Positions 40,316-43,550 of a DNA stretch of 64,000 nucleotides are shown here, in pieces (positions within the stretch are counted from its first letter, which is position 1; the number at the start of each line of letters is the position of its first letter). Source of the DNA: Alcanivorax limicola (lineage in GTDB: Bacteria > Pseudomonadota > Gammaproteobacteria > Pseudomonadales > Alcanivoracaceae); NCBI RefSeq assembly GCF_019931215.1, contig NZ_JAIOUB010000002.1, forward strand, positions 496,001-560,000, in the 5' to 3' direction. The notes under the pieces were generated by a model, which had not been told where the DNA came from, made no database searches, and saw only the letters and a list, made by a program, of their open reading frames with translations. The position numbers and the translations under genes are program-made.

Positions 40316-41002
40316 ATGATACAGCTGGATCGCGTCAGCAAGCGGTATAGCAGCCCGGGCATGGGCAGCAAGGATGCGCTGAAGCAGGTATCGCTGACGC
40401 TGCCTGCGGGCGAGCTGACCTTTCTCACCGGGCACTCCGGCGCGGGCAAAAGCACCCTGTTGAAATTGATCATGATGATCGAGCGGCCCACCGCCGGTGA
40501 GATTCTCGTGGATGGCATTCCGCTCAATCGTGTCGGCCGCAGCGGGATTCCCCTGGTGCGCCGTCGCATTGGCATGGTGCACCAGAATCATCAACTGCTG
40601 TTTGATCGCAGCGTCTATGACAACGTGGCCTTGCCGCTGGTGATCGCCGGTTTCCCCCGGGCAGATATCGGCAAGCGTGTGCGTGCCGCGCTGGACAAGG
40701 TCGGCCTGCTGAGCAAGGAGAAGCTCAACCCGATGATGCTCTCCGGCGGTGAGCAGCAGCGCGTGGGCATCGCCCGTGCCGTGGTCAACAAGCCGCCCCT
40801 GCTGCTGGCGGACGAGCCCACCGGTAATCTTGACCCGGAGCTGTCGGCAGAAATCATGGATCTGTTCAAGGATTTTGCCCGCGTAGGCGTCGCCGTCATG
40901 ATCGCCACCCATGACCTGTCCCTGATTGCCCGTTACAGCCACCGATTGCTGACCCTGCGCGAAGGCCATCTGGTCGCCGACCGGGATGAGACGCCTGTAT
41001 GA
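40316..41002 (+). CDS. ftsE: Cell division ABC transporter ATP-binding protein FtsE
   Basis: ATPase of the FtsEX complex that activates periplasmic murein hydrolases at the divisome. 228 residues: Walker [14 protein letters not shown] loop VHQNHQLL, signature [14 protein letters not shown], Walker [13 protein letters not shown] and switch His in THDLSLI. Normal length; ATGA overlap with ftsX. Confidence 0.97.
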
Positions 41003-42033
41003 CCACGAAGCGCCCCGGCCGTAATGCCACACCGCTGAAACCGAAGCGCGCCGCGCCGGTCACGCCACCGCGTCGCAGCAGTGGCGCCCGCGCCGCCCGC
41101 AGCGCCTGGCGAGACCGCCTCGAGTCCTGGCGCCTGCATCACCGGGATTCGGCACGGGATGCCTTGCTGCGCATGCGCGCCGCGCCTGCCGCAACGGCCA
41201 TGACGGTGCTGGTGATTGCCATTGCCCTGGCGCTGCCAGCGGGCATCACGGTGTTGCTGGAAAACGCCCAGGCCGCGACGCGCGGTTGGGATGGCAACGC
41301 CCATCTGTCGGTATTTCTGAAGGACGACGTGGATAGCGACCAGCAGCGTGCGCTGGCGGCGACCTGGCAAGCGCGTGATGATGTGGCGCGCACCCAGTCC
41401 GTCACGCGGGAGCAGGCGCTGGCGGAATTCCGCGAGCTGTCCGGCTTTGGCGATGTGCTGGACGCGCTGCCGGACAACCCGTTGCCGCCGCTGATCATGG
41501 TGTATCCCGTGGACGCCCACCCGGATCAGCTGGCCGCCCTGCAATCCGCCCTGAACGCCATGCCCGAGGTGGATCTGGCGCAACTCGATGTGCTCTGGGT
41601 GCAGCGGCTGCACGCCATGATCGAGTTGGCCGGCCGTATTGTCGGGGCACTGACACTGGCGTTGGCGCTCGCTGTGGTGCTGGTGGTGGTCAATACCATC
41701 CGCCTGGCCATCGAAAGCCGCCGCGAGGAAATCGTGGTGATCAAGCTGGTGGGCGGCACCGACGGTTTTGTGCGCCGCCCGTTTCTGTATACCGGTTTCT
41801 GGTTCGGGCTGGCAGGCGGGCTGGTGTCCGTAGTGCTGGTGCAGATCGCCCTGCTGTGGATCGGTTCACCCATTGATGAGCTGACGGCACTGTACGATAG
41901 TGAGTACTCGCTAGTCGGCATCGGCTTTGTGAACGTGCTGGTGCTGCCGCTGTTTGCGGGTCTTCTGGGGCTGATGGGCGCCTGGCTGGCGGTCTCCCGC
42001 CACCTCAATGACATCGACCCGCAGCTTCTCTGA
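40999..42033 (+). CDS. ftsX: Cell division protein FtsX
   Basis: Membrane partner of FtsE. 344 residues: basic cytoplasmic N-terminus with many Arg/Pro, first membrane helix around AATAMTVLVIAIALALPAGIT, a periplasmic domain (STVFLKDDVDSDQQRALA-like stretch, then PDNPLPPLIMVYP), and three C-terminal helices (LTLALALAVVLVVVNTIRLA; FLYTGFWFGLAGGLVSVVL; LPLFAGLLGLMGAWLAV) of the FtsX/MacB type with the ESRREEIVVIKLVGGTDGFVR loop. Confidence 0.96.
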   Translation: MTTKRPGRNATPLKPKRAAPVTPPRRSSGARAARSAWRDRLESWRLHHRDSARDALLRMRAAPAATAMTVLVIAIALALPAGITVLLENAQAATRGWDGNAHLSVFLKDDVDSDQQRALAATWQARDDVARTQSVTREQALAEFRELSGFGDVLDALPDNPLPPLIMVYPVDAHPDQLAALQSALNAMPEVDLAQLDVLWVQRLHAMIELAGRIVGALTLALALAVVLVVVNTIRLAIESRREEIVVIKLVGGTDGFVRRPFLYTGFWFGLAGGLVSVVLVQIALLWIGSPIDELTALYDSEYSLVGIGFVNVLVLPLFAGLLGLMGAWLAVSRHLNDIDPQLL

Positions 42034-42097
42034 GAGGCCTGCTGCCCACAAACACGTCTGCATAGCCTGGGCCTATCAGGGGAACAAATGCACACCC

Positions 42098-42124
42098 TTA
42101 GCACTCCAAGGCAACGAGTGCTAA
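42098..42124 (+). promoter_or_regulatory. Perfect CIRCE element (HrcA operator) upstream of rpoH
   Basis: TTAGCACTC (42098-42106), nine bases, GAGTGCTAA (42116-42124): an exact match to the CIRCE consensus, with the standard 9-base spacer. The right arm overlaps a -10-like TAATAT (42122-42127), so bound HrcA would block transcription of rpoH, whose ATG is 65 bases further on. hrcA itself is not in the window. Confidence 0.93.
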
Positions 42125-42189
42125 TATCCTGCTCAAAGCGCGTATCAGCTGAGGCTGAGCGACGAGCTACCCGGATAAGGAACAAGACC

Positions 42190-43050
42190 ATGCAACTGCA
42201 GAAATTTGATGCCTTGCAACTGATGAATGTGCCCGGCGGCAGCCTGGACAGCTACATCTCGGCAGCCAGTGCCGTGCCGATACTGAGCGCGGAAGATGAG
42301 CGTGCCCTGGCAGAGCGGTTGTTCTACGAGGATGATATCGATGCAGCGCGCAGCCTGGTGCTCTCGCACCTGCGCTTCGTGGTGCATATTGCCCGCAGCT
42401 ACACCGGCTACGGGCTGCCGCTGGGCGATCTGGTCCAGGAAGGCAATGTCGGTCTGATGAAAGCGGTGCGCCGGTTCGACCCGAATGTGGGCGTGCGGCT
42501 GGTCAGCTTCGCCGTACACTGGATCAAGGCTGAAATTCACGAGTTCGTGTTGAAGAACTGGCGCATCGTCAAGGTGGCTACCACCAAGTCGCAGCGCAAA
42601 CTGTTCTTCAACCTGCGCGGTGCCAAGAAACGTCTGGCACGACTGACCCCGGAAGAGACCCAGCGCGTGGCGGATGACCTCGGCGTCAGTACCCGCGATG
42701 TGCGGGAAATGGAAGGCCGCCTGGCGGCCTTTGATGCGTCTTTCGACGGCCCCATGGACGACGATGATGACAGCCCGGTGGTATCGCCCGCCCAGTACCT
42801 TGAAGCGGACGGCGGCGACCCGGCGGACATTCTGGCCGATCAGGACTGGCAGGAGCAGAGCAGCCGGCGTCTCGGCTCGGCGATGCTGAGCCTGGATGAG
42901 CGCAGCCGCGACATCCTCGAGCGCCGCTGGCTTGCCGAAGACAAGACCACCCTGCAGGATCTGGCCAACCATTATGGCGTTTCCGCAGAGCGCATCCGGC
43001 AGCTGGAAAACGCAGCGATCGGCAAGTTGCGCAATGCCATGGTGGCGTGA
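42190..43050 (+). CDS. rpoH: Heat-shock sigma factor sigma-32
   Basis: Directs RNA polymerase to heat-shock promoters. 286 residues: N-terminal [21 protein letters not shown], region 2 ([33 protein letters not shown]), the RpoH box QRKLFFNLR (135-143) that distinguishes sigma-32 from other sigma factors, and region 4 HTH ([29 protein letters not shown]). ATG 42190 follows AAGGAACAAGACC; an in-frame ATG at 42088 would lie before the CIRCE element and is rejected. Standard position after ftsX. The CIRCE element implies an extra layer of heat control. Confidence 0.96.
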
Positions 43051-43112
43051 GGTCTGAGCCGTGAGCAATGAGGTATGAGCGCTGAATGCCGGCGCCGATC
43101 TCAGGTAGAATG

Positions 43113-43137
43113 AACGCCGCCCTCGGGCGGCGTTTTT
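43113..43137 (+). terminator. Intrinsic terminator after rpoH
   Basis: AACGCCGCC-CTCG-GGCGGCGTT followed by a five-T run: a 9-bp GC-rich stem with tetraloop, 63 bases after the rpoH stop. Strong rho-independent terminator. Confidence 0.93.
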
Positions 43138-43163
43138 GTGTCCCACTGTTGTGAGCCGTGCTG

Positions 43164-43550
43164 ATGAAGATCCTGTTGATACTGGGTGCCCTGAATGCCG
43201 CGCTGGCCGTGGTGTGTGGTGCCTTTGGTGCCCACGGCCTCAAGGCCCGGGTCGAGGCGGGCCTGCTGGAGGCCGGGCGACTCGATACCTGGGCCACGGC
43301 CAGTGAGTATCATTTTTTCCAGGCCCTGGGCCTGTTGCTGGTGGGCGTGCTGGCAAAACAGTTCAGCGCTGCCGCCGGTATCATTACCGCAGGCTGGATA
43401 CTGTTTGCCGGCATGCTGGTGTTCAGTGGCAGCCTCTATCTGCTGGTGCTGACCGGTCAGCGCTGGCTCGGTGCGGTGACGCCGGTGGGCGGCACCCTGC
43501 TGATTATCGGCTGGGTCTGGCTCGCCTTTTCTCTCTACAAAACGGTCTGA
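43164..43550 (+). CDS. DUF423 membrane protein (YgdD-like)
   Basis: 128 residues with four hydrophobic segments. MKILLILGALNAALAVVCGAFGAHGLK is the DUF423 N-terminus with its conserved AFGAHGLK; YHFFQALGLLLVGVLA and the C-terminal WLGAVTPVGGTLLIIGWVWLAF follow. Function unknown. ATG 43164 preferred to the GTG at 43158. It is directly upstream of thiS. Confidence 0.9.
   Translation: MKILLILGALNAALAVVCGAFGAHGLKARVEAGLLEAGRLDTWATASEYHFFQALGLLLVGVLAKQFSAAAGIITAGWILFAGMLVFSGSLYLLVLTGQRWLGAVTPVGGTLLIIGWVWLAFSLYKTV

Follow-up and report, generated by a model that had tools for sequence, protein, structure and literature searches.

A predicted HrcA operator overlapping candidate core promoters of rpoH in Alcanivorax limicola and its relatives

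The rpoH gene of Alcanivorax limicola, encoding sigma32, is preceded in the window (the whole 64,000-nucleotide stretch of DNA analyzed here) by a perfect CIRCE, both arms of which run into candidate core promoter elements. We consider it probable that this CIRCE functions as an HrcA operator covering the core promoters of rpoH, so that the bound repressor would block both of them, as part of a circuit gated by GroEL. Directly observed were the sequences themselves, the degree to which they are conserved, their association with hrcA and the ways in which they differ from the HrcA sites at groES. The features concerned, all on the forward strand, are as follows.

40999 to 42033, + strand: ftsX, the 5' neighbor of rpoH (TIGR00439, E = 2e-101, above cut-off)
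42081 to 42087, + strand: candidate sigmaE/AlgU -35 element, GGAACAA, with GAAC at a fixed spacing from the CIRCE in relatives
42098 to 42124, + strand: CIRCE (predicted HrcA operator), TTAGCACTC-N9-GAGTGCTAA, both arms perfect
42105 to 42109, + strand: candidate sigmaE -10 element, TCCAA, N17 after GAACAA, its TC ending the left CIRCE arm
42119 to 42127, + strand: candidate sigma70 extended -10 element, TGCTAATAT, made of TGCTAA from the right CIRCE arm plus TAT
42190 to 43050, + strand: rpoH (sigma32), ATG at 42190 (TIGR02392, E = 2.2e-117, above cut-off)

The complete operator (42098-42124, + strand) reads TTAGCACTC-CAAGGCAAC-GAGTGCTAA, which is the exact consensus given in the available text of PMC545781. 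It was the sole match in the window at ≤3 mismatches, and none of 100 shuffled windows contained a match; a chance palindrome was rejected as its source on these shuffles and on the coding-sequence controls given below. A preliminary description of this DNA had placed a perfect CIRCE in the rpoH upstream region, 65 bases before the gene, and this was borne out by the perfect arms, by the profile match of rpoH and by a distance of 65 bases between the CIRCE and the rpoH ATG. The span that it had assigned to the site, 42098-42127, is longer than the CIRCE, which ends at 42124, and takes in the TAT that completes a TAATAT box. By eye, AAGGA at 42177-42181 is the likely ribosome-binding site of rpoH. 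The + strand gene row comprises ftsY-like and ftsE-like genes (assigned by eye), followed by ftsX and rpoH (assigned by profile), and an Rfam scan of 41900-43300 was without a match at E values up to 1. The rpoH reading frame is open upstream as far as an ATG at 42088 (window 42088-42190), and an in-frame GTG lies inside the right CIRCE arm in the window and in several relatives; automatic annotation may therefore place the rpoH start inside or before the operator.

A repressor to use this site is encoded in the same genome. The hrcA gene was found with PF01628 (E = 6.1e-62), and both HrcA Pfam domains scored above cut-off, the DNA-binding domain PF03444 barely so (21.4 versus 21 bits). It is followed by grpE and dnaK, which is where the preliminary description had suggested looking for it. 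Across the whole genome (3,550,985 bases in 10 contigs) two CIRCEs were identified at ≤3 mismatches, the perfect one at rpoH and one with a single mismatch 73 bases 5' of groES, again as anticipated, groESL being the canonical HrcA target. The hrcA-grpE-dnaK locus was without a CIRCE in the same scan (≤3 mismatches). The groES CIRCE is overlapped in three groES regions (L044, L051 and L056) by a second, more degenerate CIRCE with 2 to 3 mismatches; in A. limicola itself (L032:1458-1510) such an overlapping second copy, CTAACACTT-N9-GAGTGCCAG with 5 mismatches, was seen by eye only.

The left arm of the rpoH operator supplies the -10 element of a candidate sigmaE promoter, a signal that the preliminary description had overlooked. 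The AlgU consensus is given in the available part of PMC7641640 as GAACTT-N16/17-TCTNN, to which the window's GAACAA-N17-TCCAA conforms in GAAC, spacing and TC but not in TT and the third -10 base. It is thus a weaker consensus match, with GGAACAA in place of GGAACTT and the longer spacer (N17). The GAAC-N18/19-TC pattern shares its TC with the left arm and has the spacing of the AlgU consensus. The cognate sigma factor is present: algU was found in the genome (TIGR02939, E = 1.8e-93, above cut-off), directly followed by an rseA-type gene (RseA_N, E = 9e-8, above cut-off), and is itself preceded by GGAACTT-N16-TCAGA (L072). On the right arm, TGCTAATAT meets the extended -10 promoter motif TGnTAnnAT but fits TATAAT at only four of six bases. 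The TAATAT box of the preliminary description is therefore present; the plain sigma70 promoter it might imply was not found in a consensus scan of 41900-42250, and from its sequence the box reads better as part of the extended -10 element. A further rpoH promoter may lie inside ftsX.

To place these elements in context, 57 genomes were searched, 36 from the family of the window (Alcanivoracaceae, the window's own genome included) and 21 each representing another family of the order. All 36 family genomes carry hrcA. The family count does not include G011, in whose assembly rpoH was not found, and the 35 groES sites do not include that of G017, which is cut by a contig end. A CIRCE with ≤2 mismatches lies 5' of rpoH in all 35 family genomes with rpoH (kinship ignored), so the palindrome is kept in every close relative that could be assessed, as the preliminary description had proposed to check. 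Its arms are perfect in 34 of 35 cases at rpoH and in 20 of 35 at groES. The column profile of the 35 rpoH sites has three well-kept blocks, namely GGAAC, the CIRCE arms and a TATC directly after them, while most of the CIRCE spacer and the flanks are variable; GGAAC is the strongest block apart from the CIRCE and the adjoining TATC. In one family genome the rpoH gene found by profile search (G030:C17:14776-15579) contains an in-frame TAG, a sequencing error or damage.

The groES sites of the same genomes served as controls. GAAC at -14 to -16 from the CIRCE was found at 35/35 rpoH sites (-15 in 31, -16 in 4) versus 1/35 groES sites, and TGnTAnnAT at the right arm in 33/35 versus 0/35 (kinship ignored in both comparisons). 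TATC follows the right arm at 27 of the 35 rpoH sites and ATC at 33, versus none for ATC at groES. Past its TC the sigmaE -10 is loosely kept (TCnAA in 20/35 rpoH versus 4/35 groES sites). The layout at groES is a different one, with TTGAC at -27 in 35/35 (0/35 at rpoH) and, also in 35/35, a TAnnnT whose last base is the first of the CIRCE (1/35 at rpoH). Being all but absent from the groES CIRCEs, the promoter blocks are a feature of rpoH rather than of HrcA sites in general.

Beyond the family, the site tracks hrcA. In the rest of the order, where each of 21 families was represented by one genome, a CIRCE was found at rpoH in 6/6 genomes with hrcA and 2/15 without. A second set of named genomes was built from the best 80 RpoH loci among the matches listed, chosen by protein likeness and not by CIRCE; one locus with its upstream region cut off (L126) was dropped, leaving 79, and one from a family member (L075, the same genome as G027) was counted in the 79 but left out of the 41 CIRCE-bearing loci outside the family described below. 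Record titles of metagenome-assembled genomes (MAGs) can mislead, as two loci with near-identical RpoH (L111 and L121) bear different titles. Within 400 bases 5' of rpoH, 34 of the 79 loci (best 80 among the matches listed) carry a CIRCE at ≤4 mismatches and 31 at ≤2, whereas the same scan gave 0/79 in 400 coding bases and 0.1/79 in single-base shuffles. The CIRCE was present in 33/37 loci with hrcA and 1/42 without (Fisher P = 1.1e-16, kinship ignored; 79 loci among the matches listed), where some hrcA absences may be assembly gaps, as the 80 named genomes come without completeness values. In an RpoH tree built from the named loci, the genomes of the order and six rows of the family, hrcA undergoes at least 16 changes and the site 18. 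An independent-pairs test yielded four supported pairs (a mean of 2.3 changing the same way, 0 the opposite way and 1.7 with no difference), too few for significance. The CIRCE at rpoH is thus no peculiarity of the A. limicola genome, as many hrcA-bearing relatives share the layout.

Exceptions occur in both directions. A CIRCE at rpoH without a detected hrcA was found in a MAG (L136) and in two relatives from the order (G037, 75% complete; G051, 96% complete), and two loci with hrcA (L106 and L135) have no CIRCE at rpoH. At two further loci with hrcA (L129, Xanthomonas, and L141), inspection by eye shows a degenerate palindrome at the equivalent place, its arms reading CAGTC/GACTG. Replacement of CACTC/GAGTG by CAGTC and/or GACTG was seen in genomes of the Xanthomonas kind more generally (L129, L131, L141 and L143 at rpoH, L186 at groES), a possible shift of HrcA specificity. 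Co-evolution of the variant at rpoH and groES in Xanthomonadales (6 genomes, ≤2 mismatches) was only partly shown: G113 and G125 gave the rpoH site alone, and G111 gave a single site at a contig end, where groES was not found. In another genome (G056) the rpoH upstream region (L176) holds a degenerate CIRCE whose N9 spacer contains GAACTT, with another GAACTT at -15. Genome G038 has, besides its main rpoH with a CIRCE, a second rpoH-like gene without one (L158; 315.7 bits, below the family cut-off), which was not counted.

The promoter elements recur at the 41 CIRCE-bearing rpoH loci outside the family (among the matches listed): 30 have GAAC at -14 to -16 (11 do not) and 32 have the extended -10 (9 do not), with both elements in 22, neither in 1 and GAAC without the extended -10 in 8. 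Seven loci with betaproteobacterial titles (again among the matches listed) comprise one with both elements and six with the extended -10 only (L148, L149, L150, L152, L153 and L154, which lack GAAC). Parts of the arrangement are also found where the operator is not. At 54 rpoH loci for which neither hrcA nor a CIRCE was found (among the matches listed), GAAC-N18/19-TC occurs within 400 bases 5' in 40 (6.5 in shuffles), and eight of the 54 (L076, L091, L100, L115, L127, L128, L155 and L175; 0.05 in shuffles) also carry TGnTAnnnT at about the CIRCE-arm distance from the same GAAC. By these counts, the sigmaE-type promoter reaches beyond the CIRCE, and the promoter pair persists without it in a minority of loci. 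From sequence comparison, this pattern would be compatible with loss of the operator and retention of the sigmaE promoter. Three Pseudomonas rpoH upstream regions in which hrcA was not found (L091, L100 and L127) contain GCAGTGCTAGACTGC or nearly so, a small hairpin-like repeat that contains TGCTA roughly where the right CIRCE arm would be.

The distribution of sigma32-type motifs suggests how the operator would be wired. Such a motif lies 5' of or at the groES CIRCE in 35/35 family genomes, against 0.9 expected in shuffles; A. limicola also has one 5' of grpE (L001:2249) and one 5' of dnaK (L001:2961). It was found in 0/34 family rpoH regions (0.75 expected in shuffles; one row, L028, was dropped because its upstream region was too short), and autoregulation of rpoH by sigma32 is accordingly not proposed. 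From the placement of CIRCEs and motifs, direct action of HrcA would be confined to groESL and rpoH, with grpE and dnaK reached only via sigma32. The preliminary description had envisaged a two-tier circuit in which HrcA controls sigma32; the layout fits such a circuit but not a plain hierarchy, since groESL has its own sigma32-type motif as well as a CIRCE and so stands under both tiers, as in a feed-forward loop. Operator and hrcA, the parts of the proposed master switch, are both present. With a candidate promoter of the sigmaE/AlgU type extending into the CIRCE, however, HrcA would not be the sole switch but would veto an input from envelope stress.

From this layout we infer HrcA binding, use of sigmaE, the start sites, repression and expression at rpoH, and the following sequence of events is proposed. 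At rest, HrcA kept active by GroEL would cover the sigmaE -10 and most of the extended -10, and both promoters would be blocked. With a sigmaE start presumably near 42115 by general promoter geometry, HrcA on the CIRCE would span about -17 to +10, and it would cover six of the nine extended -10 bases. Misfolded protein would then occupy GroEL, HrcA would be released and rpoH would become transcribable; the sigma70-type promoter would give a basal rise of rpoH, and transcription would be strong if envelope stress had also freed sigmaE. The resulting sigma32 would drive grpE, dnaK and groESL, the last also freed directly from HrcA, and GroEL would close the loop. The available text of PMC8533110 reports that GroE stimulates HrcA binding in Campylobacter and discusses GroE titration as a model for Campylobacter and Bacillus. 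For Pseudomonas aeruginosa, the available part of PMC7641640 includes rpoH in the AlgU regulon and describes a heat-shock rise of rpoH that needs algU. Taken together, GroE-HrcA coupling and algU-dependent rpoH would make a gate by which sigma32 is produced when GroEL is busy, and more of it under added envelope stress.

Three other explanations were weighed. HrcA might repress rpoH with only the sigma70-type promoter at the TAATAT box mattering, the view taken in the preliminary description, and the GGAAC block being something else. The breadth of TGnTAnnAT speaks for this (33/35 family sites and 32/41 outside loci, including the six betaproteobacterial-titled ones without GAAC, among the matches listed), but GGAAC is prominent in the family profile and fits both the AlgU consensus and the sequence 5' of the genome's own algU, and we regard this explanation as unlikely. 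Against it also stand the 8/41 outside loci with GAAC and no extended -10 and the 40/54 loci that keep GAAC-N18/19-TC 5' of rpoH where hrcA and the CIRCE were not found (6.5 in shuffles; both among the matches listed).

The site might instead be a relic, or HrcA might bind it to no effect, with rpoH controlled, as in E. coli, chiefly through translation and stability; this would account for the presence of the site without hrcA in three genomes (G037, G051 and L136). Perfect arms in 34/35 family rpoH sites, compared with 20/35 at groES, amid a spacer and flanks that mostly vary are hardly what a relic would leave, and we give this account a slim chance. The CIRCE has an RNA role in Bacillus, a precedent for action at the RNA level, through a 5' hairpin of the rpoH transcript that would alter its stability, in place of action as a DNA operator. 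This is very improbable here, because the starts predicted from the sigmaE and extended -10 elements would leave most or all of the palindrome outside the mRNA, a leader from 42115 folds no better than shuffled sequences (z = 0.33; 126 of 200 folded as well), and the rpoH site tracks hrcA. A DNA operator over both rpoH promoters remains the preferred reading.

A broader proposal, plausible but tentative, is that each arm of the HrcA operator also serves as the -10 element of a different rpoH promoter, the left as that of sigmaE and the right as a sigma70 extended -10, with the repressor vetoing envelope-stress and basal inputs alike. The fused element would be ancient and occur widely among gammaproteobacteria. 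After loss of hrcA it would survive as the HrcA-free sigmaE-type rpoH promoters seen in Pseudomonas and enterobacteria: the palindrome would have faded, but the sigmaE promoter would have been kept, in some cases together with the extended -10. Heat-shock control is usually taught as a choice of alternatives, sigma32 in E. coli and HrcA/CIRCE elsewhere. Here the two systems seem to be wired in series, with GroEL occupancy gating the amount of sigma32 via HrcA, and envelope-stress input seems to arrive through the same few bases as HrcA control. If this is true, the control of translation and stability of sigma32 on which E. coli relies may represent a later state that followed the loss of hrcA.

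A CIRCE at rpoH is not new in kind, as one was predicted by sequence in Geobacter sulfurreducens in 2004 (PMC545781, Table 8, in the available text). In the open literature searched, Geobacter was the only case of a CIRCE at rpoH to come up, and no sigmaE -10 was described within a CIRCE; subscription papers, most of which lie beyond this coverage, may contain earlier beta- or gammaproteobacterial reports. Within the reach of these searches, the wide occurrence of a CIRCE at rpoH among gamma- and betaproteobacteria is new, as is its overlap with -10 elements.

Like A. limicola, G. sulfurreducens has a perfect CIRCE 5' of rpoH (at -51 there), a CIRCE at groESL and an hrcA gene; its hrcA-grpE-dnaK-dnaJ cluster also bears a CIRCE, whereas the hrcA locus of A. 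limicola does not, and the available text, on deltaproteobacteria, describes no sigmaE promoter inside the CIRCE, unlike the candidate here (PMC545781). The AlgU-dependent rpoH of P. aeruginosa resembles that of A. limicola in its promoter of the GAACTT-N16/17-TC type and in the feeding of envelope stress into sigma32 (PMC7641640, available part). Seven Pseudomonas-titled genomes (L081-L084, L091, L100 and L127) have hrcA in 0/7 and no CIRCE, whereas here the candidate -10 lies inside the operator. The rpoH of E. coli has a sigmaE-dependent promoter of the same GAACTT type, likewise feeding envelope stress into sigma32. The Bacillus hrcA locus carries a CIRCE, unlike that of A. limicola. Caulobacter groESL has the same operator, and there HrcA is held active by GroESL (PMC8119881, available text). 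Within the Alcanivoracaceae themselves, the groES CIRCE comes after a sigma70-type promoter, whereas at rpoH the candidate -10 elements lie within the operator arms.
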